A stretch of 64,000 nucleotides of DNA, from positions 4,507,644 to 4,571,643 of the forward strand of contig NZ_CP035490.1 in assembly GCF_004135205.1 (NCBI RefSeq), given 5' to 3'. Shown here piece after piece: positions 4,774 through 60,391 of the stretch (its first letter is position 1; each line of letters opens with the position of its first letter). The translations under genes and the position numbers were made by a program. This DNA comes from Hahella sp. KA22 (GTDB lineage: Bacteria > Pseudomonadota > Gammaproteobacteria > Pseudomonadales > Oleiphilaceae). The notes below the pieces were generated by a model that made no database searches, had not been told where the DNA came from, and worked only from the letters and a program-made list of their open reading frames with translations.

Positions 4774-6465
4774 ATGATCGATTGCCTGATTGTCGGAACC
4801 AATATGCCGCCCACTCCCGAACACGTGGAGATGGTGCGTTCCGTCGATAATCACGGCGGCGCCTGGCGCGACCTGCGGCTGGCCTTTGTGGAGCATCAGG
4901 GGCAGCCGTATACGGCGCTGGATTTGATTAACCATATCTATGACGAAGCCGGCCAGTCCCATCGACAGTTCAACAACCTCGACTTTCTCTGGCCGGCGGT
5001 GACCTATCTGGCGTCATTCCTGCGCCGGCGCGGCTTCACCGTGGACTGGGTCAACCTGTTTCAACAGGAAAAAGACGAGATGCGCCGCATACTGCGCAGC
5101 GGTCAGGTGCGCACGGTAGCGGTCACCACCACGCTGTATGTGTCGCCGCAGCCCATGATCGAAGTGATCAAGTTCGTCCGCGAGCACAGCGACGCCCATA
5201 TCATCGTCGGCGGGCCCTATATCTCCGGTCAGGCGGAGGTGCGCAACGCAGACGAGCTGGCCAGTCTGTTTGAATACCTGGGGGCGGATACCTACGTGAT
5301 CAGCTCCGAGGGCGAACAGGCGCTGGCGCATATCATCAGCGCGCTGCAAAAAGGAGAGCCCCTGGACGGCGTCGCCAATCTGGCCATCCGCGATCCCAAA
5401 AGCCTGCTGCGGCCGTTTTCCCGTACCCTGGTGGAGACGGAGTACAACCCTCTGGAGGAAAACCCCGTCGACTATGGCCTGTTTCCGCCGGATCAGCTGT
5501 CCCAGTTTATTTCTCTGCGCACCGCCAAATCCTGTCCCTACAGCTGCGCGTTCTGCGGCTTTCCGCAACGGGCGGGCGCTTACAAAACCCTGGCGCCGGA
5601 CTTGGTGGAGCAGGAGCTGGACCGTATCGCCGCGCTGGGTAATGTGGACACCCTCACCTTTCTCGACGACACCTTCAACGTGCCGAAAAAGCGCTTCAAG
5701 GAAATCCTGCGCCTGATGATCCGCAAGCAGTACGGCTTCCGCTGGAATTCGTTTTACCGCAGCGATCAGGGGGATTATGAAACCATCCAGTTGATGCGCG
5801 AGGCGGGCTGCGAAGGGGTCTTTCTGGGCATTGAATCCGGCAGCGACACCATGCTCAAAAACATGAATAAAACCGCGCGCCGGCGTAATTTCGCCGAGGC
5901 GATTCCGCAATTGCAGGCTGCCGGTATTTCCGCCCACGCCAGCTTGATTGTCGGCTTCCCCGGCGAAACCGAAGACACTATTCGGGAAACGCAATCCCTG
6001 ATCGAGCAAAGCAAGCCGGACTTCTACCGCGCCCAGTTGTGGTACTGCGATCCGCTGACGCCCATCTGGAAAAACCGCCAGGAGTACGACCTGGAAGGCA
6101 ACGGTTTCTCCTGGCGCCACCGCACCATGAACAGTGAAACCGCCTGCGACTGGGTGGAGCGTTTGTTCTTCGATATTCGCAATTCCACCTGGTTGCCCCA
6201 GCACGGATTCGAACAATGGTCTACTTTCTATCTGCAGCGTCGCGGTTATACCCGCAAGCAGGTGATCGACTATGTGGCCTTGTTCAATTCCACCATCAAG
6301 GCGCAGATGGCCGATCCCACGTTGAAGACGATTCCCGCGCCGATACTGCAGCGCATGCGCACTCTATTGTTGGAAAAAACCACGGATGACGCTTTTATGG
6401 CGAATATCCATCATAGAAGTAACGAGACAGTCAGCCAGGACGCGCTGGAGAGCTTTGCTTTCTAG
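4774..6465 (+). CDS. B12-binding radical SAM enzyme, PhpK-like methyltransferase family
   Basis: A 563-residue protein. The ATG at 4774 is chosen because a strong AAGGAAGGA ribosome site (4756-4764) precedes it; a GTG at 4738 is possible but has none. The N-terminal half looks like a cobalamin-binding Rossmann domain (VGGPYISG), without an obvious DxHxxG. The radical SAM cluster motif is CPYSCAFC, with Cys 254, 258 and 261, followed by a TIM-barrel region with GIESGS and VGFPGET. The opening MIDCLIVG and the FLWPAVTYL region recall the PhpK family of P- or C-methyltransferases often found beside NRPS genes; that assignment is from memory. Its place between two NRPS genes suggests it methylates a carrier-bound residue or the finished peptide. 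The acceptor is unknown. Confidence 0.88.
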   Translation: MIDCLIVGTNMPPTPEHVEMVRSVDNHGGAWRDLRLAFVEHQGQPYTALDLINHIYDEAGQSHRQFNNLDFLWPAVTYLASFLRRRGFTVDWVNLFQQEKDEMRRILRSGQVRTVAVTTTLYVSPQPMIEVIKFVREHSDAHIIVGGPYISGQAEVRNADELASLFEYLGADTYVISSEGEQALAHIISALQKGEPLDGVANLAIRDPKSLLRPFSRTLVETEYNPLEENPVDYGLFPPDQLSQFISLRTAKSCPYSCAFCGFPQRAGAYKTLAPDLVEQELDRIAALGNVDTLTFLDDTFNVPKKRFKEILRLMIRKQYGFRWNSFYRSDQGDYETIQLMREAGCEGVFLGIESGSDTMLKNMNKTARRRNFAEAIPQLQAAGISAHASLIVGFPGETEDTIRETQSLIEQSKPDFYRAQLWYCDPLTPIWKNRQEYDLEGNGFSWRHRTMNSETACDWVERLFFDIRNSTWLPQHGFEQWSTFYLQRRGYTRKQVIDYVALFNSTIKAQMADPTLKTIPAPILQRMRTLLLEKTTDDAFMANIHHRSNETVSQDALESFAF

Positions 6466-6535
6466 TGCGGTTGCGCGGTCGGCGACCATAACAATAAGAC
6501 TCTCATGAACGGAACAAGGAAAATAAGGAAAGACC

Positions 6536-46167: not shown

Positions 46168-46833
46168 CTACATTTTAACCAACGTATACGCCCGGCTCAT
46201 CACATCGCCATTTAAAATAGCGACCAACCCAGTTGCATCACTATTGTCGTAGCCCGCCAGCATAATACTTTTACCGAGCTTAGTTTGAAGTTTCGCCTTA
46301 CTTATAACAGTTCCGTCCAAGGTCACGTAACTATAGCCGCCAACGTTATCGTTTACCTTCTTCCCTGACTTTGCATAGGCCTCATCCGTAACGGTGATTG
46401 ATACTGCAATATCGTCTCCGCGGGGTGAAACCGCCGTTGATTCAACTATATCCGTATTGGTATACCAGATGTCTTCAGGGGCCTCCCCTCGCATCACAAA
46501 ATTGCCTGGATGTTGACTGACGAATTCGACAAGTCTGGCGTTAGCAGCGCCTCTAGTTAGCACGATGAACGCCTTCCCGTCATTTTGCATAAAGTCAGCG
46601 CGGGAAAATAAGCCAGGACCAAGGCGGCTGACTCTTCTTGTGAGGATTTCCATATCCTCAGGGCCATTGCCATCACCTTGATAGCCTTTTACTTCGTATA
46701 CCACTTTAGGCGCAAAGAAATATCTAAACTCTTCACTATTCTTTATCGGAAAATAAGCCAATACAGCGGATATCAGCAACAGGCTCAGCTTGATAATTTT
46801 TACAAATAAAGGCGTGGACGTTTTTGCAGGCAT
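46168..46833 (-). CDS. Membrane-anchored protein with SecD P1-like domain, paralogue 1
   Basis: 221 residues from the ATG at 46833, which has GGAG at the right distance. One N-terminal membrane helix (FVKIIKLSLLLISAVLAYF) is followed by a periplasmic domain with the layout of the SecD/SecF P1 head: EDMEILTRRV, AVSITVTDEAYA, YVTLDGTVISKAKLQTKLG, a final DVMSRAYTLV. It is paralogous to the protein at 47113. None of the SecD membrane part is present, so it is not a translocase subunit. Confidence 0.7.
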   Translation of the reverse strand: MPAKTSTPLFVKIIKLSLLLISAVLAYFPIKNSEEFRYFFAPKVVYEVKGYQGDGNGPEDMEILTRRVSRLGPGLFSRADFMQNDGKAFIVLTRGAANARLVEFVSQHPGNFVMRGEAPEDIWYTNTDIVESTAVSPRGDDIAVSITVTDEAYAKSGKKVNDNVGGYSYVTLDGTVISKAKLQTKLGKSIMLAGYDNSDATGLVAILNGDVMSRAYTLVKM

Positions 46834-47112
46834 CGTCACTCCAAGCATTTCCGTATCGAAATATGCGGTGAATTATTCAATAGAGAGTTCGATTACCGAA
46901 TGAAATTAACGTAGTTTTTACGGTGTGACTACCCGGTGAAAACCCTAGCTTGGAGCCTCAATACAGCGTTAGTTGCGCATTGATTATCGGTGGATGAAAC
47001 CAGCAGAAAGGGGTGAAGAGGAAGGGATGGACAGGAATTATCAGGGCCGGGCTTTATGCGAGGCGATAGGGAGAATAGACCAACCCTGCAGTCTATTCTC
47101 AGTCAAAGCTGC

Positions 47113-47781
47113 TTACAGTTTTACCAACACATACCCACTGCTCATGCGGCCACTGTCAAGCATAACGGCCAGGGCTTGGGCTTCCGTATCGCTGGCGCTG
47201 GTCAGGAGGAATTTTTTACCCAGTTCCGTTTGCACCATGGCTTTATGAAGTATTTCATCATCCAGCATGGTGTAGGCGTAGCGTCCGATACTTTGATTAA
47301 TCCTTGGTGAGGCTTTTCCGTAGGATTCATCCGAGAACACAACTTCAACGGCAAGTCTGTCGCCTGCGAGAACAGCAGCCGACTCCACGACGTCTTTATC
47401 GCTATACCAGATATCATCCGGCTCAGTTCCCCTGAATACGAGTTCGCCGGGATGCCGGCTTAGAAATGCGACCAGTTCGGCGTCAGGGGCGCCCCGCGAA
47501 AATTCAATCACGCCCTTGCCTTGCACGTCCTTGAACTGGACTGATGACAGTTTACTCGGGAGCACGGCGTTCAGACGTTTCAACAGAATATCCATGTCCT
47601 CTTTAGAACGTTTGTCCGCCTGGTAATCCTGCACTTGGTAGGCGACTTTTTCAGCCCTCAGATACTCCAGTTCCTTGCAGCCCGCGAGGATGAATAAAGT
47701 AAGCAATACAGCCATCGCCTGGCATGGTTTATACGTCTTTGTCAGAACGGTTTTGGAGCTATTCAAATAAGTTCCCTGCAA
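47113..47781 (-). CDS. Lipoprotein with SecD P1-like domain, paralogue 2
   Basis: 222 residues. The lipobox is LAGC after a hydrophobic stretch (AVLLTLFILAGC), so it should be a lipoprotein; the start may be the first ATG or the Met at 47715. The periplasmic domain shares EDMDILLKRL, FSRGAPDAELVAFLSRHPG, EPDDIWYSDKDVVESAAV, AYTMLDDEIL and the end DSGRMSSGYVLVKL with the gene at 46168. The closing part is like the SecD P1 head. The pair arose by duplication and differs in how it is anchored. Confidence 0.75.
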   Translation of the reverse strand: MQGTYLNSSKTVLTKTYKPCQAMAVLLTLFILAGCKELEYLRAEKVAYQVQDYQADKRSKEDMDILLKRLNAVLPSKLSSVQFKDVQGKGVIEFSRGAPDAELVAFLSRHPGELVFRGTEPDDIWYSDKDVVESAAVLAGDRLAVEVVFSDESYGKASPRINQSIGRYAYTMLDDEILHKAMVQTELGKKFLLTSASDTEAQALAVMLDSGRMSSGYVLVKL

Positions 47782-48272: not shown

Positions 48273-48680
48273 GGGTGAAATTGTCGAAAATCCTTTAAAA
48301 AAACAGCGCCTGAGCCAGCGCGCGGCTATTTAACCACAGAGCCCGCCCTGCGGGGAATATCAGACTTTCAGAGCCCGAACATTTTCCAACATTCAGAGAC
48401 TTAGCCAAATTGGGTGCGACAAACTGCCGCATTGCCCCCGCTAGCCCCTCCGCATATAAAAATAAGCGGTGTTGGACCTTACAAAAAACATTAGAAATTA
48501 ACGGCATGGATCGCGCTTTAGCTGTTGTTCGTCACGCATCGATGTCGGCGACTGCTTTGAGAGTTTTGTTTTCTCTCCGCCTTCCCTCTGTCGATTACGG
48601 TCCTCGTAATCTGATCCGGCTGCATCCGGTGATATAACCGAACTAATAACTAGAAATCGCATCAATCGATAGAAGGACAT
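48273..48680. other. Intergenic region upstream of the thiocarboxylate operon
   Basis: 408 bases between divergent genes. It should hold the promoter of the operon starting at 48681 and that of 48272. I see short open frames without coding character, no clear Fur box and no riboswitch. A good ribosome site (AGAAGGAC) lies just before 48681. Confidence 0.5.
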
Positions 48681-49859
48681 ATGTCGATGAAGCTTCCCCC
48701 CCTCGTAGAACCCGCTGCGGAGTTGTCCGCGGAGGAAATCGCCCGCTATAGCCGTCATCTGCTGCTGCCGGATGTCGGACTGGATGGGCAGAAACGCTTG
48801 AAGAACGCCAAAGTGCTGGCGGTAGGCGCCGGAGGGTTAGGCTCTCCGGTTTTGCTGTATCTCGCCGCCGCAGGCATTGGAACCCTGGGTGTTGTGGAAT
48901 TTGATGTGGTTGACGAATCCAATCTGCAACGTCAGATCATCCACGGCGTTTCCGACCTCGGACGCCCCAAGGGCGAAAGCGCCAGAGACGCTATTCGCGA
49001 AATAAACCCTCATGTTGCAGTGCGCCTGCATAGCGAACGACTGGATGCGGACAACGCGCTGTCGACTTTCGCTGAATACGACCTGATAGTCGATGGAACC
49101 GACAATTTCGCCACCCGCTATCTGGTCAACGACGCCTGCGTACTTACCGGCAAGCCTTATGTCTGGGGCTCCATTTACCGCTTTGAAGGTCAGGCCTCGG
49201 TGTTTTGGGAAAATGCTCCCGGCGACGCCGGCCTGAATTACCGCGACCTCTACCCCGAGCCGCCTCCGCCCCATCTGGCGCCGTCCTGTTCCGAAGGCGG
49301 CGTGCTGGGCATTCTGTGCGCATCCATTGGCGCCATCATGGCCACAGAAGCGGTCAAGCTGATCACCGGGCTGGGCGAGTCGCTACTGGGTCGACTGGCG
49401 GTGTATGACGCTCTGGAGATGAACTACCGCTTCATCAAGCTGCGCCGCGACCCGCAACGCACCCCGATTACCGAACTGGCGGACTATGCGTTTTCCTGCG
49501 GCCTGACCACAACCACGCAGGACAGCGCTCCCTCAGTTCCCAGTATTGACGCGCATGAACTCAAACAATGGCGTGACGACGCCAAAGTCTTCCAGTTGAT
49601 CGACGTACGGGAAACAACAGAGTGGGACATCGTGCGCATTGCCGGCGCCCGCCATATCCCGCAAAGCCGCATTCTCGAAGAGGAGGTTCTGGTCACGCTG
49701 AACAAGAGTTCGCCCATCGTGCTGCACTGCAAATCCGGCGTACGTTCGCAACGGGCGTTGCAGTCTCTGCGCGAACAAGGTTTTGACAATGTCCACCACC
49801 TCGACGGCGGCATTCTCGCCTGGATTCGAGATGTCGACCCTTCATTGCCCAGCTACTGA
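48681..49859 (+). CDS. MoeZ-type adenylyltransferase/sulfurtransferase (E1-like plus rhodanese)
   Basis: 392 residues. The E1-like domain has the nucleotide loop GAGGLGSP (49-56) and the region NYRDLYPEPPPP followed by SCSEGGVLG, which lacks the CxxC zinc ligands of E. coli MoeB and looks like the mycobacterial MoeZ type. A C-terminal rhodanese domain has active Cys 350 in HCKSGVRS. The enzyme adenylates the C-terminal glycine of a sulfur-carrier protein and then passes sulfur to it. It is the first gene of the operon and corresponds to QbsC in thioquinolobactin synthesis. The gene style suggests possible transfer from actinobacteria. Confidence 0.92.
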   Translation: MSMKLPPLVEPAAELSAEEIARYSRHLLLPDVGLDGQKRLKNAKVLAVGAGGLGSPVLLYLAAAGIGTLGVVEFDVVDESNLQRQIIHGVSDLGRPKGESARDAIREINPHVAVRLHSERLDADNALSTFAEYDLIVDGTDNFATRYLVNDACVLTGKPYVWGSIYRFEGQASVFWENAPGDAGLNYRDLYPEPPPPHLAPSCSEGGVLGILCASIGAIMATEAVKLITGLGESLLGRLAVYDALEMNYRFIKLRRDPQRTPITELADYAFSCGLTTTTQDSAPSVPSIDAHELKQWRDDAKVFQLIDVRETTEWDIVRIAGARHIPQSRILEEEVLVTLNKSSPIVLHCKSGVRSQRALQSLREQGFDNVHHLDGGILAWIRDVDPSLPSY

Positions 49860-49877
49860 TCAGGGAGGAAACCAGAC

Positions 49878-50396
49878 ATGCTGACAATTCTTTCCGAACT
49901 CGTAGACGCCATGATCCAACAGGCGCAGACAGATCACCCTATGGAAACCTGCGGCGTTATCGCCGGCCGGGAGCGCGCGGAGCGTCCCATGCGCCTCATT
50001 CCCATGCGCAATGTAGCGGCGTCAGAGGATATGTTCATGTTCGACGCCCGCGAGCAACTGCAGGTCTGGCGGGAAATGGACGCCAACGGCGAAGAGCCGG
50101 TAGTCATCTATCACTCACATACCCACTCGCGCGCCTATCCCAGCAAAGACGACATACTTTGCGCCGCGGAACCGCACGCCCATTACGTCATTATCCCCAC
50201 CGACCCCGCGTACGGGGGCGGCATTCGCAGCTTCCGCATCGTCAACGGTGCCGTGGTGGAAGAAACCATTCGCGTCGTCGAACAATACGCCGGCGAAAAA
50301 TCTTTACCCCTTGCTGAAAACAGGAGTTCCCATGTCCATCACCATCCATATTCCAACCGTTCTGCGTCCGCTGACCAACGATCAGAAGCGCATTGA
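49878..50396 (+). CDS. JAMM-type zinc peptidase (QbsD/Mec-like)
   Basis: 172 residues with ribosome site GGAGG. The JAMM motif is complete: Glu 23 (METCG), His 79-Ser-His 81, then after seven residues Ser 89 and Asp 92 (HSHTHSRAYPSKDD). Proteins of this family remove extra residues after the GlyGly of a sulfur carrier, so it is expected to process the protein encoded at 50332. The last 22 codons overlap that gene and are His/Ser-rich, unlike a normal end of the family. The original stop may have been lost. Confidence 0.92.
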   Translation: MLTILSELVDAMIQQAQTDHPMETCGVIAGRERAERPMRLIPMRNVAASEDMFMFDAREQLQVWREMDANGEEPVVIYHSHTHSRAYPSKDDILCAAEPHAHYVIIPTDPAYGGGIRSFRIVNGAVVEETIRVVEQYAGEKSLPLAENRSSHVHHHPYSNRSASADQRSEAH

Positions 50397-50622
50397 CGGT
50401 GATGGCGCGAATGTGCGGGAAGTGATCGAAAACATGGAGATACAGTACCCGGGCGTCAAAGAGCGACTGATGGCGGACGGCAAGGTGCATCGTTTTCTCA
50501 ATATCTACGTGAACGATGACGACATTCGCTTCGCCGATAACCTGGATACATCCGTGCAAACTGGCGACGCCATCACCATCCTGCCAGCAGTGGCCGGCGG
50601 GTGCGGCGACAGGCTGGGATAA
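50332..50622 (+). CDS. MoaD/ThiS-like sulfur-carrier protein with capped C-terminus
   Basis: 96 residues from the ATG at 50332, which has ACAGGAG upstream; the frame is open earlier but without a start of that quality. It is ubiquitin-like, with the ITILPAVAGG pattern. The GlyGly is at 89-90 but six more residues follow (CGDRLG), so it must be trimmed before it can be adenylated. That matches QbsE, which ends in GlyGly plus two residues and is trimmed by QbsD. The start lies within the JAMM gene (65-base overlap). The thiocarboxylate form should be the sulfur donor of the pathway. Confidence 0.9.
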   Translation: MSITIHIPTVLRPLTNDQKRIDGDGANVREVIENMEIQYPGVKERLMADGKVHRFLNIYVNDDDIRFADNLDTSVQTGDAITILPAVAGGCGDRLG

Positions 50623-50627
50623 CCGCC

Positions 50628-52544
50628 ATGACCCTGTTACTGGAAGACTGCTACCTCAGTGGAACGTTACGCAACCCGACGCCGGCCCTGGCGCCGCTGT
50701 ATGCGTCGTTGCGATATCAAGCCAATGCCCTCGGCGTCGCCTGGGAGAATGTCGATACGGAATCCGGCGCCGCATTCGCGTTGCACGTGACGGATCACGT
50801 CGCGGTCGATTGCGTATTGGAAGGCTGGTCGGACGCCGTGGAGCGTCCCATATCAGAAACTTTAGCCCAGGCGGCGACAGGGTTAATGTCCGTACACGGG
50901 CGTTCCAGCGGCGGCGCGCAGCCCTTGGGAGTGGATTATGTCTCCACCCTCACCGCCGTGCTTTCCCTGCAAGGCGTAATGGCCGCCGCGATCGGTCGTC
51001 TCCGCGGCGCGCCGATGCGCACAACCCATACCAGCCTGACCTCAAGCGCCTTGCTCAGCGTCGCGCAATATCTGGCCGGAGCCACCGCTCCAGAAATGCC
51101 GGAGCGCTTATTGCCCGGCGCAGCCAATGTGCAGGAACGTCCGCCCTTCACCTCCGCCGACGGCGTGGTGTTTGAACTGGAAACCCTGGACGCGGCGCCC
51201 TGGCGTGATTTCTGGTCCCAGGTGGGCGTCGACGCCGCCAGCGCCGGCAAAGGCTGGAGCGGATTCTTGCTGCGCTACGCCAAAGCCATCTCCCCGGTTC
51301 CCGCCGTACTCTGCGAGGCGCTCGCCGCGCTGCCGTTTGCGCAGATAGAAAACCTCGCCCGACAAACCGGCGTCGCCATTTGCAGAGTGCGCACACTCCA
51401 GGACCGCGTGCAGGACGGGGACGCAATGGACATGTGGCGCGATGGGCCCTGGCGCTTCCAGTGTGATGGCGACCTATCCCAGGCCGCGCCGCTGAAGCCT
51501 TGTAATTCATCCTCGCACTTGCCTCTGGCGGGCTTAACCGTCGTCGAATCCTGTCGCCGCATTCAGGGGCCATTGGCGGGGCGCTTGCTCTCTCTGCTCG
51601 GCGCCGAAGTGATTCGCATCGAACCGCCCGGCGGCGACCCTTTGCGTGGCATGCCGCCCATGGCGGAAGAGGTTTCCGCCCGTTTTGACGCCCTGAATCG
51701 AGGCAAGAACGTACGAGAAATCGACATCAAATCCGCCGTCGGCAAAGCAGAGGTCATGGCGTTGATCCGGCAGGCGGATGTCTTCCTGCATAACTGGGCC
51801 CCCGGCAAAGCCGCGGAGATGGGACTGGATTACGATGATATGAGACTAGTGAATCCTGACCTCGTTTACGCCTATGCGGGAGGCTGGGGAGAGAACGCGG
51901 AGCATGACCTGCCCGGCACTGATTTCATGGCCCAGGCTTACTCCGGCGTCGCCGCAAAAATCGCCGCGGCGTCGGGGCTGCCGGGGGGCGCATTGTTTAC
52001 TGTTTTGGACGTATTGGGCGGCGCCGTCGCCGCTCAAGGCGTCACTGCCGCGCTGCTGGCTCGCGGATTGGGTCGCGCTCGCTCGGTCAGAGTAGATACC
52101 TCCCTGCTGGGCGCCGCCACCTTGTTATGCGCAGACGAGCTTGGCGCCCTGTTGCAGCAGCCGGGGTATCAAAGTCATGTCCTGGACGGGGGGCAGAGCT
52201 CTCCTGTATGGGCTTCATTGAATGGCGTCTACGCCACCGCACAGGGGTTGCTTGCTCTGGACTGTCTGGATGAGCGCGCCTTTTCCAGGCTCACCCGCGC
52301 CATTGTCGATGCTGCGTCTGAATATCAGACAGGCGGCTCACACGACAACCTGAATCAAGAGCATCTGCAGCGTGTTCTTCTTCATCGCAAAGCGCAAGAG
52401 TGGGCGGCGTTGTTTGAAATGGGCGGCGTTCCCGCCGCTGTAGTGGTCGAAGACCTGACGGACCTCAGCCGCGACCCGCGTTTGGCGCCCACTCTCAACA
52501 AGGACATCTATGTTCGAGTGAATTCACCATGGAGGTTTCAATGA
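50628..52544 (+). CDS. Two-domain CaiB/BaiF-type (class III) CoA-transferase-like protein
   Basis: 638 residues from the ATG at 50628. The C-terminal half is a recognisable class III CoA-transferase: LAGLTVVESCRRIQGPLAGR, LLGAEVIRIEPPGGDPLRG, LNRGKNV and the catalytic Asp in GTDFMAQAYSG. The N-terminal 300 residues resemble a degenerate version of the same fold (LGVDYVSTLTAVLSLQGVMAAAIG) without the key motifs. Double-length members exist in the family. Its substrate here is open; it could move CoA to or from the acid that becomes a thiocarboxylate. ATGA overlap with the next gene. Confidence 0.85.
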   Translation: MTLLLEDCYLSGTLRNPTPALAPLYASLRYQANALGVAWENVDTESGAAFALHVTDHVAVDCVLEGWSDAVERPISETLAQAATGLMSVHGRSSGGAQPLGVDYVSTLTAVLSLQGVMAAAIGRLRGAPMRTTHTSLTSSALLSVAQYLAGATAPEMPERLLPGAANVQERPPFTSADGVVFELETLDAAPWRDFWSQVGVDAASAGKGWSGFLLRYAKAISPVPAVLCEALAALPFAQIENLARQTGVAICRVRTLQDRVQDGDAMDMWRDGPWRFQCDGDLSQAAPLKPCNSSSHLPLAGLTVVESCRRIQGPLAGRLLSLLGAEVIRIEPPGGDPLRGMPPMAEEVSARFDALNRGKNVREIDIKSAVGKAEVMALIRQADVFLHNWAPGKAAEMGLDYDDMRLVNPDLVYAYAGGWGENAEHDLPGTDFMAQAYSGVAAKIAAASGLPGGALFTVLDVLGGAVAAQGVTAALLARGLGRARSVRVDTSLLGAATLLCADELGALLQQPGYQSHVLDGGQSSPVWASLNGVYATAQGLLALDCLDERAFSRLTRAIVDAASEYQTGGSHDNLNQEHLQRVLLHRKAQEWAALFEMGGVPAAVVVEDLTDLSRDPRLAPTLNKDIYVRVNSPWRFQ

Positions 52545-54190
52545 ACCACTCAGGCATCATCGATCTGGTTCCAGCGGCGCTGCGTAAGCATTGGGCGACG
52601 CAGGGCCTGTATCCAAACCGCACCGTATTCCAAATGTTTCAGATGTATGCGGAACAGTCGCCGACCAAGACAGCAGTGCTCTCGCCGGATTCCGAGATCA
52701 CCTATGGCGAGCTGCTGGATAAGGCCTTGCGGTTGGCGACGGCTTTTCAGGAGATGGGCATCGTCGCCGGCGATGTGATCGCCTATCAACTGCCCAACAG
52801 TTGGCGCTGTTGCGCGGTAGATCTGGCCGCTGCGGCGATAGGAGCGGTAGTCGCCCCCTTTCCACCGGGGCGGGGCCGTCTGGATATCCAGTCCCTGCTG
52901 AAGCGCTGTGACGCTCGCGCCATCATTGCGACGCCGGAATACGGCGGTGTGGACATGTGCGAGCTGATCGAGTCATTGCGCTCCACCACCTTGTCCTTAC
53001 GCTGGCTGATTGCGGACTGCGATCAGGCGCCAGGGGGCTGGATCAGCCTGGAACAGTGTTTTCAGGCGAAACCGATAGCGCTGCAGCGCCTGCCTCATGT
53101 CGACCCGGACTCGCCAGTGCGCCTGCTGGTGTCTTCCGGCACCGAATCCGAACCCAAGCTGGTGGCATATTCCCACAATGCGCTGTTAGGCGGTCGCGGC
53201 CGTTTTCTGCAGCGTCTGCATCCTGACGGAGCCAGTTTTCGCGGCATGTATCTGGTGCCGCTAGGTTCGTCTTTCGGCTCCACCGCCACCTTTGGCGTGC
53301 TGTCCTGGCTGGGCGGTTCCCTTGCGGTGTTGCCCCGTTTCGATGCGGAGGAAGCTATCCGCGCGATTGAAACGCTACGCCCCACCCACATTCTCGGCGT
53401 CCCCACCATGATTCAGCGCATGGCCGCCGAGCCCCTGCTGGCGGACATCGACAAGTCCAGTCTGGTCGCCATTGTCAGCGGCGGCTCTGTGATTGATCCC
53501 GCCAGCATCCAACGCTGCGTGGACGCCTTCGGTTGCGGCTTTATCAGCCTGTATGGCTCCGCGGATGGCGTGAACTGTCACAACACGCTTGATGAAGCGC
53601 TGGATGTGGTGTTCCGCAGCGTCGGTCGCCCCAACCCGGACGTTTGCGAGATTCGCATCGTCGACGACGCCGGCAAGGAAGTCCGCCCCGGCGAAATCGG
53701 CGAAATTCTCGCCCGCGGCCCGATCAGCCCCATGCAATACGTCAATGCCCCGGAGCTGGACGCCCGATATCGTGACCCTGAAGGCTGGGTGTATACCGGC
53801 GATCTGGGCTTGCTGGATCAGGACGGCTATTTGCGCCTCTCCGGCCGCAAGAAAGACGTGATCGTGCGCGGCGGCGCCAACATCAGCACGGTGCAGATCG
53901 AGAATCTGGCCACCTGTTTTCCAGACGTGATCAGCGCCGCCTGCGTGCCGGTTCCTGATCCTGATCTGGGACAGCGCGTGTGCCTGTGTCTAAGCATGCG
54001 CAGCGGAGCCGATCGCCCTTCCCTTGCCGAAGTCACCAGCTTTCTACGGGATCAGGGATTGGAAGTGAACAAGCTGCCAGAGTATCTGCGTTTCATACGC
54101 CACTTTCCGCTCACTCCGGCGGGCAAGGTCGACAAGAAGCGGCTCACCGCTGAAGTCGCTTTTCTGGAACGCAGCGCTTGCGCAGTTTAG
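52541..54190 (+). CDS. AMP-forming acyl/aryl-acid ligase
   Basis: 549 residues. The ATG at 52541 overlaps the previous stop (ATGA) and follows GGAGGTTTCA. It is an ANL-family enzyme: ATP loop LLVSSGTESEPK (a variant of the usual TSGTTG), YGSADG, GWVYTGDLG, GRKKDVIVRGG and the A10 lysine in PAGKVDKKRL. The loop variation suggests a specialised substrate. In the PDTC and thioquinolobactin pathways such a ligase activates a carboxylate as acyl-adenylate for attack by the sulfur-carrier thiocarboxylate. That role fits here. Confidence 0.9.
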   Translation: MNHSGIIDLVPAALRKHWATQGLYPNRTVFQMFQMYAEQSPTKTAVLSPDSEITYGELLDKALRLATAFQEMGIVAGDVIAYQLPNSWRCCAVDLAAAAIGAVVAPFPPGRGRLDIQSLLKRCDARAIIATPEYGGVDMCELIESLRSTTLSLRWLIADCDQAPGGWISLEQCFQAKPIALQRLPHVDPDSPVRLLVSSGTESEPKLVAYSHNALLGGRGRFLQRLHPDGASFRGMYLVPLGSSFGSTATFGVLSWLGGSLAVLPRFDAEEAIRAIETLRPTHILGVPTMIQRMAAEPLLADIDKSSLVAIVSGGSVIDPASIQRCVDAFGCGFISLYGSADGVNCHNTLDEALDVVFRSVGRPNPDVCEIRIVDDAGKEVRPGEIGEILARGPISPMQYVNAPELDARYRDPEGWVYTGDLGLLDQDGYLRLSGRKKDVIVRGGANISTVQIENLATCFPDVISAACVPVPDPDLGQRVCLCLSMRSGADRPSLAEVTSFLRDQGLEVNKLPEYLRFIRHFPLTPAGKVDKKRLTAEVAFLERSACAV

Positions 54191-54198
54191 CCACAGGA

Positions 54199-55446
54199 AT
54201 GGCCGCACACATGATCATGCACGACAACGCTCCCACCACCAGTACGTCACATAGCGCGCTGACGCAACGCATCCGCGCCTTCGTCAATGAGCGGGTGATT
54301 CCCAATGAAGCCAGACTCGCCAAAGACGATGACGCTGCGCTGGCGCTGCAATCCGCGTTGACCGCGGAGGCCCGCGCCCAAGGTCTGTGGGGGCTGTATT
54401 ATCCCGCCGCACTGGGAGGCGAAGTCGCCACGTTAAGCGAGTATCTGCCCATCGCGGAACAGGAAGGACGTTCTGAGTTCGGGCCGGAGATCTTCGGAGG
54501 GCGCGCCGCATTGGATGCGCGCATGCTCGCAATGCATGGAAGCGACGCCATCGCCTCTCGCTTCCTGCAACCGTTAGCGGCGGGCGACGCGGTGTCCGCC
54601 TATGGCATGTCGGAACCGGACAGCATCGGCTCCATTCCCGCCACCATTAACTTACAGGCGCAGCGCGAGGGAGACGGCTGGCGCCTTGACGGCCGCAAAT
54701 GGTTTATTTCCCGCGCCCGTCGTGCGGACTTTATCACCGTAGTGGCGCGCACCCAGGCGGACGCGCCGCCGCAACAGGCTTTATCCATGCTGGTCATGCC
54801 CACGGACGCGCCCGGCTTCAGCATCCTGCGCGATCTGGACATCCTGGGCCGCCGCAACGGCCAGCACGAGCTGCTGTTCGACAATGTCTGGATTCCTCAA
54901 GACCATCTGTTGGGTGAACTGCACGGGGGCATGGCGTTGATGAAACAGCGGCTATGCCTGGGCCGCTCCATTAACGCCGCCCATTGGATCGGGTTGGCGC
55001 AACGCTGCCTGGACCTGCTCGGCGAACGCGTCAACAGCGAACGCGGTCGCCTGGCCCGGTTGCCGGACAAGCAGCTTATTCGACGCTTGGCGTTTCTCAC
55101 TCACCAAGGCATCGTCAGCGCACGCGGGCAACTGCAATTAGCCGCCGCCAAACTGGACGCGGGCCTGGACGGCGACATGGAGGTCAACATGGCGAAGATC
55201 GCCGCGTCCCACGCGCTCAATCAGGCGGCGGACAGCGCTATTCAGGTGTTCGGCGCAGAAGGCCTGTGCGATGCGACGCCACTCTCCAACATTTTTCGCT
55301 ACGCCCGCGCCACCCGTATTCTGGACGGCGCCGACGAAGTGCTGATCAATACTGTGGGGCGGCGGATTCTGGAGGGCTATGGCGCCGATGCAGAGCAACC
55401 CGCGCCACAGGACGCCCTGGCTGAGCGGGAGACAATGCCGTCATGA
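54199..55446 (+). CDS. Acyl-CoA dehydrogenase family flavoprotein
   Basis: 415 residues from the ATG at 54199; ATGs at 54211 and 54217 are alternatives. The family motifs are YGMSEPDSIGS (FAD binding), DGRKWFISRA, RRNGQHELLFDNVWIP, and a C-terminal VFGAEGLCD...RILDGADEV. The length is normal. In a metallophore pathway it could oxidise a ring precursor (as dihydrodipicolinate to dipicolinate) or a side chain. ATGA overlap with the MFS gene shows tight coupling. Confidence 0.9.
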   Translation: MAAHMIMHDNAPTTSTSHSALTQRIRAFVNERVIPNEARLAKDDDAALALQSALTAEARAQGLWGLYYPAALGGEVATLSEYLPIAEQEGRSEFGPEIFGGRAALDARMLAMHGSDAIASRFLQPLAAGDAVSAYGMSEPDSIGSIPATINLQAQREGDGWRLDGRKWFISRARRADFITVVARTQADAPPQQALSMLVMPTDAPGFSILRDLDILGRRNGQHELLFDNVWIPQDHLLGELHGGMALMKQRLCLGRSINAAHWIGLAQRCLDLLGERVNSERGRLARLPDKQLIRRLAFLTHQGIVSARGQLQLAAAKLDAGLDGDMEVNMAKIAASHALNQAADSAIQVFGAEGLCDATPLSNIFRYARATRILDGADEVLINTVGRRILEGYGADAEQPAPQDALAERETMPS

Positions 55447-56639
55447 ACGCCATCGCGCCGCCGCTACGCCAATCGACTTTACACAGCTTGAGCCTGCATG
55501 CCGTATTGCTGTTATCCATGACACTGCCGATGCTGATCCTGTATACCATCGGCGCGCTGGGCCCGCTGCTGATCGCCGACCTGGGCATTGAGGCCGGCTG
55601 GCTCGGGTACGTCACCATGAGCGCTTTCGGCGTGGCGGCGATGCTGTCTCTGGCGGCCGGTCCGCTGGTGGAGCGCCTGGGCGCGCGGCGCGGTTTGCTC
55701 CTGTTGTTTGTGAGCGTGGCGCTGGCCTATGCTCTGATGATCACCCTGCCCGGCTTTGCAGGCATTATCGCCGCCGTGGCGGTATGTGGCGTCGCCCAGG
55801 CGTTGTCGAATCCCGTCACCAATTTATTGATCGCTCAACAAATCGCTCCGCCGCGCAAAGCGTTCGCCGTTGGGCTGAAGCAATCCGGAGTGCAGCTTGG
55901 CGCTCTGATTGCCGGCGGATTGCTGCCGCTGATCGCTGTTCCGTTCGGGTGGCGCGCCGCCATGGCGACGATCATCCCGGTAGCGCTGTTATTGGCGTTC
56001 ACCGCTCCCGCTCTGGCGCCGCCAGCGCCGCCTGCCGAATCGCGTCGCTCCTGGCTGCCTGCGCGTCCGGGAGCGCTGCTGCTCAATCTGATGGCGGTGC
56101 AAGGGTGCGCTGGTGTGACCCTGTCCGCTTTTGTGACCTTTCTACCGATCTTCGCCACTCAACAGGGCGTCAGTCAGCATGACGCAGGCATGATGGTGGC
56201 CGTCTTTGGCGTGATGGGCCTCACGTCGCGTCTCACGCTGACGCCTCTGTCAACCAAACTCAAGGATGAATCCTGGATGCTGCTGGGATTAATGGCCCTC
56301 ACCGCGTTGGCGCTGTGGATTACCCAACAGGCCTCGTCAGAAAGCCACTGGCCGTTATGGGTTGGCGTGCTGATAGTGGGACTCACCGCCGTGGCCACCA
56401 ATGCGGTGGCGATGGGCATGCTGCTTAGAGACCGCGTTTTCGGCGCGCCGGCGACGGCGTCCGGCCTCCTGTCCGCCGCGTTCTTCGGCGGTTTCGCGGC
56501 GGGCGCGCCCTTGTTTGGCGCGGTCTCCGGTTCATCATTCGGCTTCAACGGCGCCTGGAGCGTTCTGTCCCTGGTCGCTCTGGCCGGTTCCGCCGCTGCG
56601 TTGGGATTAGCCCTGTTGCGACGCAGGAGCGCCCCATGA
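55443..56639 (+). CDS. MFS transporter of the thiocarboxylate operon
   Basis: 398 residues, about twelve membrane helices, coupled by ATGA to both neighbours. Motifs include VERLGARRGLLLLFV after helix 2 and LSNPVTNLLIAQQIAPPRKAFAVGLKQSGVQ, typical of the MFS. In the PDTC system an MFS protein (PdtE) helps bring the metal complex across the inner membrane, so this one may act in uptake or in export of the free ligand. The direction cannot be told from sequence. Confidence 0.88.
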   Translation: MNAIAPPLRQSTLHSLSLHAVLLLSMTLPMLILYTIGALGPLLIADLGIEAGWLGYVTMSAFGVAAMLSLAAGPLVERLGARRGLLLLFVSVALAYALMITLPGFAGIIAAVAVCGVAQALSNPVTNLLIAQQIAPPRKAFAVGLKQSGVQLGALIAGGLLPLIAVPFGWRAAMATIIPVALLLAFTAPALAPPAPPAESRRSWLPARPGALLLNLMAVQGCAGVTLSAFVTFLPIFATQQGVSQHDAGMMVAVFGVMGLTSRLTLTPLSTKLKDESWMLLGLMALTALALWITQQASSESHWPLWVGVLIVGLTAVATNAVAMGMLLRDRVFGAPATASGLLSAAFFGGFAAGAPLFGAVSGSSFGFNGAWSVLSLVALAGSAAALGLALLRRRSAP

Positions 56640-57805
56640 GCGAGTTGCAATCTCCCCGCTGGGACGCAGCGGCGCTCTCCCAACAGGAAATCACCAAAGC
56701 CATTGGTTTGCTGATGCGACGCCTGGACGTCATAGACGCACAATGCGGCGCTGGATTCCCCCTGTTCAGCCCTGATGGCGCACGCTGGAAAGTGTCTTCC
56801 GGCGGCTCCTGGATGGGCGGCTTTTGGGCCGGTTGCTGGGGGCTGCGGGCGCTTGTTTCAAAATCCGCCGACGACCGCGACAAAGCACTGGCTTTATGCT
56901 CCGCGCTCTCAGACAAACTGCAGGCGGACACGCTCAATCGCAGCATGATTTTCTGGTACGGACCTGCTCTCTGTGGACGCTGGTTTCATGACCCGGAAGC
57001 GCAACGCCTCGCTTCCCAAGCCGCCGCCGCTGTTGTGTCCAGCTTTGACTCAGAGCTTGGTTACATACCATTGGGTTGCGACATGGGCGGCGGCGCGGAC
57101 GGCCGCCAACGCCTGTCCGTGGACGCTTTGGCGGCGACGATTCAGCTACTGCAAGTGAACGACGACGAAGCCCTGGACAAAGTCGCCCGCGCCCATACCG
57201 ACGCCCTGATCGCCGCCTGTTTCACCGCCAGCGGCGCCTGCAGCGCGGAAGCGCAATCCACTCAGCAACAAGAGCCACAACAATCTATTTTGCAAGCGCT
57301 GGACCGTCCCGGCGGCTGGTCCCGTGGGCAAGCCTGGGCGATGTTGGGACTGAGCCATGCCGCCATTCGCTGGGGCTCGCCCTATCTCGATTACGCCAGA
57401 GCCGCCTGCGTGTACTGGCGGCGCTCCCGCCGCACGCCGTTTCCCGCCGACAGGCCGGAGCGTAGTGACAGCCTTTCCGACCCTTCCGCCGCGTTAATCG
57501 CTGCGGTGGCGATATTGACGCTCTCCGAGCGGCTGGAGGATGGCGACCGCTGGCGGACTTATGCAGCGCAACAGATCGCCGCCCTGGTGCGCAGCTCCTA
57601 CTTTGTCCGTCGCGATAGCGGGATCGCGCCTCTCGCAGGCGCATTCAAGGGGGCCTGTTACCGCACCAGCCCCGCCGGATGCGAACTGGTGGAGTCGCCC
57701 TGGAGCAGTTTTTTCCTGCTGGAAGCATTGTGCATGCTCGCCGGCCTTATTGATGGAAAAGAACAAGGGACTCAGTCTCACTCGATGAATCAAGCAGATG
57801 ACTAG
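56636..57805 (+). CDS. GH88/unsaturated glucuronyl hydrolase-like protein
   Basis: 389 residues with an (alpha/alpha)6-barrel pattern of family GH88: SWMGGFWAGCWGL, DRPGGWSRGQAWAMLGLSHA, SDPSAALIAAVAIL and a late CYRTSPAGCELVESPWSSFFLLEAL. The HDxGF segment that holds the first catalytic Asp in unsaturated glucuronyl hydrolases is not seen, although SVDALAATIQLL may keep the second. There is no signal peptide. ATGA coupling to the transporter places it firmly in the metallophore operon, where such a protein is unexpected. Confidence 0.75.
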   Translation: MSELQSPRWDAAALSQQEITKAIGLLMRRLDVIDAQCGAGFPLFSPDGARWKVSSGGSWMGGFWAGCWGLRALVSKSADDRDKALALCSALSDKLQADTLNRSMIFWYGPALCGRWFHDPEAQRLASQAAAAVVSSFDSELGYIPLGCDMGGGADGRQRLSVDALAATIQLLQVNDDEALDKVARAHTDALIAACFTASGACSAEAQSTQQQEPQQSILQALDRPGGWSRGQAWAMLGLSHAAIRWGSPYLDYARAACVYWRRSRRTPFPADRPERSDSLSDPSAALIAAVAILTLSERLEDGDRWRTYAAQQIAALVRSSYFVRRDSGIAPLAGAFKGACYRTSPAGCELVESPWSSFFLLEALCMLAGLIDGKEQGTQSHSMNQADD

Positions 57806-57827
57806 CCACGTTCTTTTTATCTGCAAC

Positions 57828-57856
57828 GACAGGACCGCCCGATGTCCGGTTCTGTC
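57828..57856 (+). terminator. Hairpin between the biosynthetic and uptake genes
   Basis: GACAGGACCG (57828-57837) pairs with CGGTTCTGTC (57847-57856), with one G-U, and is followed by TTCTC. It may partly end the operon before the copper-uptake genes. Confidence 0.45.
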
Positions 57857-57943
57857 TTCTCGCGGCTTATCACCGCGCAGGCGCCTCCGCGCGCCCGATT
57901 ATTAACATGTTTAAAACACCGCCAAACTCTTCTGAGGAATAAC

Positions 57944-58438
57944 ATGAAAAATTGTCATAACAACAGGATGTCTTCACCGCCCATCTCTTTCCGTAGCCTG
58001 CTCGCCGCTCTGACGCTGAGTTCGGCGCTGGTCGCGCCCGCCTTCGCCAACGACAGTCTGACGCAAGAGCAGCAGCAAGTGGTCAAACTTATCTCCGAGA
58101 CCTATGACCAGCCTCACCACAAGGTGGAGACAGCGCCCGTCATCGTGGTTGACGACTACGCCATCGCCGACTGGATTCAGGGCGAACGTGGCGGACGCGC
58201 TCTGCTGCGCCGGGACGGCGATAAGTGGATGGTGCTGGCCTGCGGCGGCGATGAGTTCAAGAAAGCGGATCTGCTGCACAAAGCCGGCATCCCTCAGGAC
58301 ACCGCCTCCCAGCTCATTTCGGAACTGACTGAAGCGGAACAGTCCATCGCTCCCCAAAAGCTGGCGCAGTTCGGGCTGTTTGGCACGCCCAATGATCCGG
58401 GTATGTCCGCGCATCATCAAAACCATCCACAAAACTGA
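57944..58438 (+). CDS. Copper-uptake-system-associated periplasmic protein
   Basis: 164 residues from the ATG at 57944, with GAGGAA before it. The signal peptide is LLAALTLSSALVAPAFA. The mature part reads VVDDYAIADWIQGERGGRALLRRDG and then VLACGGDEFKKADLLHKAGI, with a single Cys, a layout I recognise from small proteins annotated as associated with copper-uptake systems. The end is His-rich (SAHHQNHPQN), which may bind metal. It directly precedes the TonB receptor (39 bases) and links the whole cluster to copper. Confidence 0.75.
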   Translation: MKNCHNNRMSSPPISFRSLLAALTLSSALVAPAFANDSLTQEQQQVVKLISETYDQPHHKVETAPVIVVDDYAIADWIQGERGGRALLRRDGDKWMVLACGGDEFKKADLLHKAGIPQDTASQLISELTEAEQSIAPQKLAQFGLFGTPNDPGMSAHHQNHPQN

Positions 58439-58477
58439 TCCGTTCAAGTCCAATAAGCAGTCAAGCAAGTCAGTACT

Positions 58478-60391
58478 ATGAAATTTTCCCCCAAGAAACT
58501 AGCCGTGACGGTCGCGTTGACCGCCGCTGGCGGCGCGCATGCGCAAACCACCGTTCTGGAACCGATGATAGTGACCGCCAAGCCGGTCATTGAAGAAGTG
58601 GAAGTGGATATGTTCTCCAGCACGTCCGCCGTTGTCACCGCAGAGCAGATTCGTGATCAAAACGCAGTGGACCTTACCGCTGCGCTACGCCGCACGCCGG
58701 GCGTACAGATTTCCCGCTATAACCCGGTCGGCGCTTTCGGCGGCGATCAGGGCGGCGCGGTGTTCATCCGCGGCATGGGCGTCACCCGTCCAGGCAGCGA
58801 GATAAAGACCTACATCGACGGCCTGCCGCTGTACATGGGGTTATGGGGACACCCACTTTTAGACCTGTTGCCCGTCAACGCCATGCAGTCCATGACCGTG
58901 TATAAAAGCCCGCAACCGCAGATCAACGGCAATAACTTCGCCTCCATCGATCTGCATACCAAGCGAGCGACAGAGGAAGGCGTTCACGGCGCCATGCGCT
59001 TCTCCGCGGGCAAATACCACACCCGAGTACAGCAAGCAGAATTGGCCGGCAGTAACGGGGATTTGGACTTTATTCTGGCGCAAGGCTACGCCACTTCCGA
59101 CGGCCACCGCAAAAACGCAGACGGCGAATTGAAGAATCTTTTCGGTCGGGTTGGCGCGCAACTGAATGAGCACTGGGCGGCCTCTTTCAGCGGTCTTTAC
59201 GTGGACAATGAAAGCACTGATCCAGGCAAAGAAGGAGACCCCGAGCCGGATGTGGCGCCGGAGTACAACACCCAGGCCTTCATGCTGGCGACCACACTCT
59301 CCCACGAACATGGCGACTGGTCCGGCGAGTTCAGCCTGCATCACAGCTCCGGCGAAGGTAACTGGTATCACCAGGGCGGCGGTGATGGCGATACGCTGTC
59401 GGATTTCACCATGAGCGGCTTGCGCTGGCGCGAACAATTCTCGCCCTGGATGGATGGAACCCTGGTTGCAGGCCTGGACTATGACCGCGTCTCCGGTGAA
59501 GCGCATTTCAATCGCGACGACCCCACCCGACGCGCGCACCTGGATGCGCCGACGTTCAAACTGTGGTCGCCCTACGTTGGACTGAGTCATCTGTTCATGC
59601 TCAACGATGAATGGATGCTGTCACCGTCCATCGGCGTGCGTTATTACGATCACAATGAATTTGACGCCCAGACCGCGCCTTACGCCGGTCTGTCGCTGAT
59701 GTCGGACTCATTGACGCTGTTCGTCAATGCTTCCCAGGGAGTCAATTATCCGGGCCTGGAAGCGCCAACGCTGGCGACGGCGATACCGCCTCTGGCCGAT
59801 AGCTGGAAACAACTGGAAGCGGAAGAGCTGGATCATTTGGAAGCCGGCGCCAAGTTCGCGTTGACGACCACCACCCAGATCGACCTCAGCGTCTTCAAAG
59901 ACAAGGTGAAAAACCGCTACGTCTTCGCTTTTCCTCCACAGGTCTCCAGCCCACAGTTCATTAACTTCGGCGACTACAGTATGCGCGGCGTCGAATTATC
60001 GATCAGCCAGACGTTGCCGGCGGGATGGTCCCTGTTTGGCGGGCTGACGTTGCTCGATCCGGATATCGACAACCTTCCCTACACTCCAGAACGGGCGGTT
60101 ACCGCAGGTCTGAACGGCCAGGTTGGCCCCTTCCGCCTCGCAATGGACGCGCAGCATCAATCCGAGGTCTGGGCGCTGACGCGCAAGCGGGCGTCAGGGG
60201 ACGTTAATGGAGAGAAAGTCAGCGGCTTCACCGTGGCCAATATGCGCGTCTCCTATCCTCTGTCCCCATTGGGTCAGGACGGCGAAGTCTTTGTCGCCGT
60301 GGAGAATCTATTCGACCGTGAATACGCCTATCGCCCAGGCTATCCCATGCCGGGCCGCTGGGCGCAGATAGGGTTGTCCGCGAGCTTTTAG
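58478..60391 (+). CDS. TonB-dependent outer-membrane receptor
   Basis: 637 residues. A signal peptide (LAVTVALTAAGGAHA) is followed by a TonB-box-like PMIVTA. The plug domain shows VTAEQIRDQNAVDLTAALRR and GAVFIRGMGV. A 22-strand barrel follows, closing with Phe (GLSASF). It is smaller than many siderophore receptors. By position it should import the metal complex made by the upstream operon, as PdtK does for PDTC; a copper-loaded ligand is suggested by the gene just before it. Confidence 0.92.
   Translation: MKFSPKKLAVTVALTAAGGAHAQTTVLEPMIVTAKPVIEEVEVDMFSSTSAVVTAEQIRDQNAVDLTAALRRTPGVQISRYNPVGAFGGDQGGAVFIRGMGVTRPGSEIKTYIDGLPLYMGLWGHPLLDLLPVNAMQSMTVYKSPQPQINGNNFASIDLHTKRATEEGVHGAMRFSAGKYHTRVQQAELAGSNGDLDFILAQGYATSDGHRKNADGELKNLFGRVGAQLNEHWAASFSGLYVDNESTDPGKEGDPEPDVAPEYNTQAFMLATTLSHEHGDWSGEFSLHHSSGEGNWYHQGGGDGDTLSDFTMSGLRWREQFSPWMDGTLVAGLDYDRVSGEAHFNRDDPTRRAHLDAPTFKLWSPYVGLSHLFMLNDEWMLSPSIGVRYYDHNEFDAQTAPYAGLSLMSDSLTLFVNASQGVNYPGLEAPTLATAIPPLADSWKQLEAEELDHLEAGAKFALTTTTQIDLSVFKDKVKNRYVFAFPPQVSSPQFINFGDYSMRGVELSISQTLPAGWSLFGGLTLLDPDIDNLPYTPERAVTAGLNGQVGPFRLAMDAQHQSEVWALTRKRASGDVNGEKVSGFTVANMRVSYPLSPLGQDGEVFVAVENLFDREYAYRPGYPMPGRWAQIGLSASF

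Follow-up and report, generated by a model that had tools for sequence, protein, structure and literature searches.

Thiocarboxylate natural products are few, only two being counted before thioplatensimycin (PMC6006322), and photoxenobactin E is another name that appears in the literature. Pyridine-2,6-bis-thiocarboxylate (PDTC) and thioquinolobactin have been regarded as siderophores so far. PDTC was obtained from a marine Streptomyces (PMC7374359). In Pseudomonas kilonensis F113, the pdtCKPELMFGHIJON cluster lies at PSF113_2605-2618 (PMC3570484), and PDTC derivatives were reported as detected in this strain while PDTC itself was not (PMC7415375). A ligase/CoA-transferase pair is described as required for the thiocarboxylic acid of thioplatensimycin (PMC6006322). 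A 2006 paper assigned the PdtF-J genes of Hahella chejuensis, Nitrosomonas europaea, Nitrosospira multiformis, and Ralstonia solanacearum to (PDTC-like) siderophore biosynthesis (PMC1779556, Table 1, row 4a). Here, a ten-gene operon carrying such a core was analyzed in Hahella sp. KA22 (contig NZ_CP035490.1), at positions 48681-60391 of a stretch of 64,000 nucleotides, which is called the window.

We propose that the operon makes, exports, and takes up again a small chelator of the thiocarboxylate type that serves mainly for copper, PDTC or a close relative being the likeliest product. We put the probability of this reading at roughly 0.58. The system is probably a copper- or redox-regulated chalkophore of the PDTC kind. 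Copper is favored as the main metal by the protein families, the neighboring genes, and the regulation in relatives; for Hahella itself, copper is a prediction from sequence. The ten genes form an operon-like run on the + strand and are closely spaced or slightly overlapping. From the CoA-transferase through the GH88-like gene, neighbors overlap or are separated by a few bases, and wider spacing precedes the NF033672 gene (138 bases) and the receptor gene (39 bases). The features are as follows.

48408..48680, +: leader and promoter region, near-identical in four Hahella genomes save short indels and one insert in strain HN01
48415..48431, +: RegA/PrrA/RoxR-like operator, a 17-bp dyad TGCGACA-AAC-TGCCGCA directly upstream of the putative promoter (exact-pattern genome search with a backward control)
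48432..48460, +: putative promoter, TTGCCC (48432-48437), a 17-nt spacer, and TATAAA (48455-48460), found by eye
48681..49859, +: MoeZ-like E1 adenylyltransferase with a rhodanese domain, PdtF type (PF00899, PF00581)
49878..50396, +: JAMM/JAB peptidase, PdtG type (PF14464, E 2.2e-29)
50332..50622, +: MoaD/ThiS-like sulfur carrier with a capped C-terminus, GG-CGDRLG, PdtH type (PF02597; start set by eye)
50628..52544, +: two-domain type III CoA-transferase, PdtI/QbsK/PtmU4 type (PF02515 on the second half; start 50601 in the list of open reading frames)
52529..54190, +: AMP-dependent acid ligase, PdtJ/PtmA3 type (PF00501, PF13193)
54178..55446, +: acyl-CoA dehydrogenase family protein (PF00441, PF02770, PF02771)
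55443..56639, +: transporter of the major facilitator superfamily (MFS), a probable exporter (PF07690)
56636..57805, +: GH88-like protein (phmmer and profile; D163 is equivalent to Asp149 of unsaturated glucuronyl hydrolase, and N101 stands at the Asp88 position)
57944..58438, +: NF033672 copper uptake system-associated protein, probably periplasmic (125.6 bits)
58478..60391, +: TonB-dependent receptor of a subfamily common to NF033672-bearing copper loci (PF07715, TonB plug)

The initial annotation had described ten genes of these families, and Pfam and NCBIfam searches recovered all of them in place on the + strand. E1-rhodanese, JAB peptidase, MoaD-like protein, CaiB-type CoA-transferase, and AMP-ligase, the PdtF-J set of thioacid clusters, were present together. 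The E1 scored 645.9 bits against NF005902, marginally below the cut-off of 647. PF02515 matched the second half of the CoA-transferase, and the first half was covered by the alignment; the two-domain type is described in PMC6006322. Starts better than those in the list of open reading frames were chosen by eye for MoaD (50332), the CaiB-type protein (near 50628), and the NF033672 protein (57944), whose ATG follows GAGGAATAAC and whose Sec-type signal ends in AFA. Synthesis of a thiocarboxylate by the operon is very likely. A role in metal uptake is likely because a transporter and a receptor are present. Family membership and a gene-for-gene likeness to pdt-like clusters give good support to the thiocarboxylate metallophore that had been suggested.

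Relatives were collected by a scan of named genomes with an alignment of the CoA-transferase, and the counts given here refer to the best 80 of 304 relatives. Gene presence in each locus was taken from tblastn; in GC-rich loci, calls of open reading frames fused some genes and overlooked others. The ligase was found in 80 loci, the dehydrogenase in 74, E1, JAMM, MoaD, and MFS in 70 each, the GH88-like gene in 60, the f9 family in 25, and NF033672 in 10. The loci were grouped under labels of our own: Cu (NF033672 present; 10 loci), P, or pdt-like (f9, f10, or f19; 29 loci), N, or ammonia-oxidizer-type (f13 or f15; 24 loci), and ungrouped (17 loci). The P type was seen in Pseudomonas, Stutzerimonas, Alcaligenes, Thauera, Vibrio, and others, and carried the methyltransferase f14 (27/29), a second MFS, f19 (23/29), f9 (25/29), and f10 (24/29). 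The N type, with a porin-like protein (f13), an amidohydrolase (f15), and a hydrolase (f16), came from Nitrosomonas, Nitrosospira, Nitrosovibrio, an unclassified metagenome-assembled genome (MAG) of their clade, a Methylococcales MAG, and Methylosinus. None of the 80 loci had NF033672 together with f9 or f10. The MoaD protein was rightly read as capped at the outset, and it extends beyond GG in 10/10 Cu, 7/24 N, and 0/29 P loci. As side observations, f10 (~820-885 aa, no Pfam match) and f9 (an N-terminal domain plus a class-III aminotransferase) are paired markers of pdt-like clusters, as at L033:2316-4970 and 4970-7504. In L049, MoaD and the CoA-transferase form one open frame past GG, which is either a fusion or a frame artefact.

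The copper link had been made to depend on the family of the small periplasmic protein. This protein scored 125.6 bits against the curated NF033672 cut-off of 50, and the link is strengthened further by the CruR leaders and the PCuAC/MbnP neighbors described below. The protein has one near-invariant Cys and a His-rich C-terminal tail in the alignment, and its structure model has a mean pLDDT of 83.5. The family is rare: a draw from the class returned the genome of the window only (1/369), and a draw from the phylum returned nine of 398 genomes, the own genome included, eight of them above the cut-off. Among 46 searched genomes with thioacid clusters, 11 carried NF033672, in eight cases within the thioacid locus. 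Of the other three, the L083 genome carries it on a separate contig, next to a receptor of this kind (L160), and in the L088 and L089 genomes it is unlinked. It was absent from all ten ammonia-oxidizer genomes searched.

The TonB receptor follows the same pattern. A receptor was found in the locus of 9/10 NF033672-bearing relatives, and in the tenth the contig ends. In pdt-like loci, the receptor, where seen, belongs to another subfamily (f17). The receptor subfamily of the window was also found in 11/24 N loci (Nitrosospira, Nitrosovibrio). Ten additional NF033672 neighborhoods (L151-L160) were collected, and six of them (L151, L152, L156, L158, L159, L160) have an adjacent or near TonB receptor; the scanned neighbors in L153 and L155 are not receptors, and L154 and L157 lay outside the scan. 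L151 (genome G995) contains a receptor, NF033672, a second receptor, PCuAC, MbnP, a MauG-type gene, and another PCuAC. Its receptor, 62% identical to that of the window, is the nearest one found outside thioacid clusters. L152 (genome G1001) contains a receptor 47% identical to that of the window, NF033672, two DUF2946 genes, and PCuAC. These two genomes have the receptor and NF033672 pair and lack the two-domain CoA-transferase; they may be users of foreign ligands or chalkophores.

DUF2946 is the CruR leader, in which a CXXC motif senses copper and a C-terminal RAPP motif stalls the ribosome. The TonB operon behind it is reported to be switched off by copper and to respond little to iron or zinc, and in Bordetella the control is copper-specific; the distance of 45 between CXXC and RAPP is conserved within one or two (PMC9426467). 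Leaders with CXXC and RAPP, RGPP, or RASP were found in 7/10 Cu loci (Fisher p 2e-7) and in 0/29 P and 0/24 N loci within the fetched DNA. The profile was built from proteins that it then found, so the positives hold by construction and the negatives are the test. These negatives reach as far as the fetched DNA; the L088 genome has a DUF2946 gene ~3.5 kb past the locus. L087, an eighth Cu locus, gave a weak hit only, at the locus edge, and L083, which is split over contigs, is the sole case among the 17 ungrouped loci.

An independent search with PF11162 was performed in 40 genomes. In Ralstonia, Rugamonas, Paracidovorax, and Parachitinimonas, a PF11162 gene immediately precedes E1, and in the receptor-NF033672-E1 loci of Acidovorax and Rubrivivax, it immediately precedes the receptor. 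P. morbosilactucae and P. wayambapalatensis have such a gene directly ahead of each of two units, the receptor unit and the AraC-E1 unit. Gaps to the next gene were ~170-430 bases where measured. All 11 CruR proteins that were read have CXXC and one of the end motifs; the distance between the two is 45 residues in seven proteins and 42-44 residues in the other four. Because CruR leaders head the E1 and receptor units, the biosynthesis unit itself would be under a copper switch in these relatives, and the copper claim is directly testable through such operons.

These leaders also bear on a different use of the product, in which the thiocarboxylate would leave the cell to detoxify copper by binding it there, or to act against competitors, and would not be taken up again. 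PDTC does inhibit other bacteria (PMC7374359), and the operon has an MFS transporter. Against this stand the TonB receptors in the Hahella operon and in 9/10 of the NF033672-bearing loci, and leaders that are repressed by copper do not fit detoxification (PMC9426467). We consider this explanation very unlikely.

The five Hahella genomes searched contain no PF11162 gene, which leaves NF033672, the receptor subfamily, and the operator as the grounds for a copper link in Hahella. A stretch of ~270 bases ahead of E1 is near-invariant in four Hahella genomes and contains the dyad TGCGACA-N3-TGCCGCA. In HN01 (L029/L042), alone among the four, >140 additional bases separate the conserved leader from the start of E1. 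No Rfam family came near its cut-off in the leader region, and the RNA fold was not unusual (z 0.58). The putative promoter at 48432-48460 was missed by the consensus scan, whose rule requires the second hexamer to end in T. Near-exact dyads, with a match at 13 or 14 of 14 positions, numbered 56 in 100 sequences, compared to 1.5 expected from resampled sequence; the 56 include duplicates in which the same DNA is present twice (L029/L042, L033/L108, L036/L103, among others). In the 600 bases preceding E1 or the receptor, a dyad with a score of at least 12 was found in 22/24 N loci, in 0/29 P loci, and in the Cu loci L042 and L043. Neither methanotroph locus of the N type has it. In the Cu locus L087, an exact dyad lies between the receptor unit and the AraC-E1 unit. 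Among the ten Cu loci, CruR is thus present in seven, the dyad in two (L042, L087), and neither in one (L112).

Genome-wide, 79 exact dyads were found in 21 genomes, which were partly selected for having sites, compared to 4 for the backward pattern. The genome of the window contains four exact dyads, one of them before the cluster. A second lies 58 bases before the ATG of a kinase gene that best matches RegB/PrrB, and the next gene best matches RegA/PrrA. An inverted GCGRC-N5-GYCGC, the test pattern for RegA/PrrA/RoxR, is present both at the cluster and before this RegB-like gene. The half-sites and length of the dyad fit the RegR site (GNGRCRTTNNGNCGC; PMC5506826). The remaining two dyads were observed 63 bases before a second TonB receptor gene and 60 bases before the likely ATG of malate synthase G; the three dyads away from the cluster lie in L185, L186, and L187. 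Elsewhere, dyads precede cydAB and a receptor-NF033672 pair in genome G935, and two near-exact dyads lie upstream of a PCuAC gene in L092. In N. europaea (G815; L188-L193; nine of ten exact sites fetched), exact or near-exact dyads precede genes for TonB receptors, TonB-ExbB, ECF sigma-factors, and BNR-repeat proteins, and also an MbnH-like gene, whose 117 bits fall short of the cut-off. The N. europaea sites resemble a TonB-uptake regulon with one operator.

Several points weigh against copper as the main metal and against parts of the proposed pathway. The RegB-like and RegA-like matches, at 146 and 161 bits, are below the curated NCBIfam cut-offs of 350 and 250, so the test pattern stands beside a sub-cut-off regulator match. 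The spacer of the window dyad mismatches the RTT of RegR, and sites of the RegA family are degenerate (PMC5506826). Control of the RegA type is also not specific to copper: in N. europaea, many TonB genes have the dyad in front of them, and RegA drives iron uptake in Methylomonas (PMC13274454). The lack of CruR in Hahella belongs here as well, as does L112, an NF033672 locus with neither CruR nor the operator. No NF033672-bearing cluster has a known product or metal. Furthermore, the PDTC-making Streptomyces strain itself was not among the loci compared, and the actinobacterial locus L117 has the CoA-transferase and ligase only, as does L120. The GH88-like gene was not found in the whole genomes of 9/16 thioacid bearers, which were chosen as having a locus without it or a cut locus; a required role of this gene on the scaffold is doubtful there.

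Some of these points would favor an ordinary PDTC-type siderophore cluster, with a ligand for iron (and zinc) and an NF033672 protein that only guards the periplasm from ligand-borne copper. The core is indeed PdtF-J and was filed under siderophore biosynthesis in 2006 (PMC1779556), PDTC has been linked to the transport of iron and zinc in Pseudomonas (PMC7374359), and RegA is able to drive iron uptake. However, the 29 pdt-like loci have neither NF033672 nor CruR in the fetched DNA and use another receptor subfamily where one was seen. CruR shuts genes when copper is plentiful, which is the opposite of what protection would need (PMC9426467), and NF033672 is elsewhere paired with TonB receptors in the six loci mentioned. 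Such a siderophore cluster is therefore judged unlikely, and uptake of copper by a PDTC-like ligand is preferred.

The identity of the ligand was considered separately. The product may be another thiocarboxylate, built on a different acid scaffold from primary metabolism, and this would be compatible with a copper role. Three genes of pdt-like clusters, f9, f10, and the methyltransferase gene, are missing from the operon, its receptor subfamily differs, and its GH88-like protein is divergent, with 49% identity at best outside Hahella. On the other hand, the ligase shares 74% identity with its counterpart in the P. indica pdt-like cluster, the E1 is at best 69% identical to those of pdt-like clusters, and the dehydrogenase, MFS, and GH88-like genes are common to both. 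A product other than PDTC is possible, although we lean toward PDTC or a close relative.

The GH88-like protein had no Pfam match. phmmer found the unsaturated glucuronyl hydrolase 2ahf (E 1.3e-11), a 24-sequence profile reached E 2.8e-32, and the alignment with this hydrolase covers most of the protein length. We take Asp88 and Asp149 to be the catalytic residues of the hydrolase. The Asp149 equivalent is present in 24/24 GH88-like sequences and the Asp88 equivalent in 0/24. An ordinary glycosidase role is unlikely because one of the two acidic residues is missing in every sequence. Even in actinobacteria, the gene stays linked to those for the ligase, the CoA-transferase, and the dehydrogenase, which suggests work on the scaffold. 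Because it is missing in the 9/16 genomes, it would be helpful and not essential, which fits a reaction also able to run unaided. With 60/80 loci carrying it, the gene is common in these clusters and does not by itself point to a new system.

Based on these families, the following pathway is proposed. The ligase and the two-domain CoA-transferase would activate an acid, and the E1-rhodanese would load sulfur onto the MoaD carrier. The JAMM peptidase would remove the MoaD cap and expose GG, and the sulfur would then go to the acid. The acyl-CoA dehydrogenase may oxidize the activated scaffold, and the GH88-like protein may also act on it, perhaps in a dehydration. The scaffold would be drawn from dihydrodipicolinate of lysine biosynthesis, and this would be why the operon has no scaffold gene. 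The MFS transporter would export the ligand, the TonB receptor would import the metal complex, and the NF033672 protein would receive copper in the periplasm. No inner-membrane importer was recognizable in the operon. In Hahella, a RegB/RegA-like redox system is predicted to bind the operator and switch the operon by sensing respiration that fails when heme-copper oxidases lack copper, so that copper-starved respiration would turn the operon on. In the Burkholderiales and Pseudomonas relatives, the copper-sensing CruR leader would be the switch.

The operon was likely acquired by transfer. Its G+C content is 61%, compared to 50% and 45% in the flanks. In the ligase tree, the window clusters with Ralstonia, Rugamonas, Parachitinimonas, and Comamonadaceae (fork support 81-91), and Hahella ganghwensis, which has a pdt-like cluster, falls in a different clade. 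Three further Hahella genomes have the identical ten-gene order. Among seven genomes of the genus (G000-G006), the cluster is present in four, a pdt-like cluster in one (G006), and neither in two. In the window, two tandem paralogues with weak SecDF_P1_head similarity were also observed on the minus strand at 46168-46848 and 47113-47781.

We tentatively suggest a class of small thiocarboxylate chalkophores with one core, wired to copper through CruR in Burkholderiales and Pseudomonas or through RegA/RoxR-like operators in Hahella and the ammonia oxidizers; this generalization is doubtful as a whole. If true, it would supply a missing copper-acquisition route for organisms with a copper-dependent ammonia monooxygenase, and ammonia oxidizers would gain a candidate copper ligand. 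In Table 1 of one review, chalkophore synthesis is given as '-' for N. europaea (PMC9693385). The only pointers to a copper role in ammonia oxidizers would be the shared operator and, in the 11/24 N loci, the receptor subfamily. The copper branch would also represent chalkophore chemistry without ribosomal peptides or non-ribosomal peptide synthetases, in ordinary proteobacteria. Outside the proteobacteria, L106 and L110 (Streptomycetaceae) and L119 and L121 (Micromonospora) carry the ligase, CoA-transferase, dehydrogenase, GH88-like, and MFS genes together without sulfur-carrier genes and are candidates for PDTC-like synthesis. These five genes are all that two of the three Streptomycetaceae loci (the third is L117) have in common with the window.

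The kind of system is not new, because the core of H. chejuensis, like those of N. europaea and R. solanacearum, was already reported in 2006 as PDTC-like (PMC1779556); the new system suggested in the initial annotation is not borne out in that form. The data suggest that what is new is a copper-type branch of PDTC-like clusters. A literature search, a weak one covering titles and abstract openings of top-ranked papers, found no paper joining thiocarboxylate clusters to copper uptake.

Compared to the pdt clusters of Pseudomonas, the operon has the PdtF-J core in the same order, and most pdt-like loci share its dehydrogenase, MFS, and GH88-like genes (GH88-like in 28/29). The P-type locus L068 matches pdtCKPELMFGHIJON of F113 in gene number and in the F-J block, from which K, P, E, L, and M would correspond to the receptor, methyltransferase, MFS, f10, and f9 of L068. 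Unlike the pdt-like loci, the window lacks the AraC regulator, the methyltransferase, the second MFS (f19), f9, f10, and the f17-type receptor, and it has NF033672, a capped MoaD, another receptor subfamily, and a RegA-like operator. The proposed resemblance of the transport genes to those for PDTC therefore holds in part, and fails for the receptor subfamily and for f19. With thioquinolobactin (qbs), the operon shares the logic of E1, JAMM, MoaD, ligase, and CoA-transferase (PMC6006322, PMC1779556), whereas quinolobactin is built on a xanthurenic acid skeleton (PMC1779556) and no gene family for this is among the ten. As in the thioplatensimycin cassette (PtmA3/PtmU4), an acid ligase adjoins a two-domain type III CoA-transferase, but the window has its own sulfur-carrier genes and ptm relies on genome-encoded ones (PMC6006322). 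The CruR-TonB operons (bp2923-bfrG of Bordetella) and the PCuAC/MbnP copper loci likewise combine a TonB receptor with copper-linked partners, and the same CruR leader occurs in relatives of the Hahella cluster. They differ in that no thioacid biosynthesis genes lie near those seen (bp2923-bfrG, L151, L152), and in that Hahella joins such genes to its receptor without CruR.

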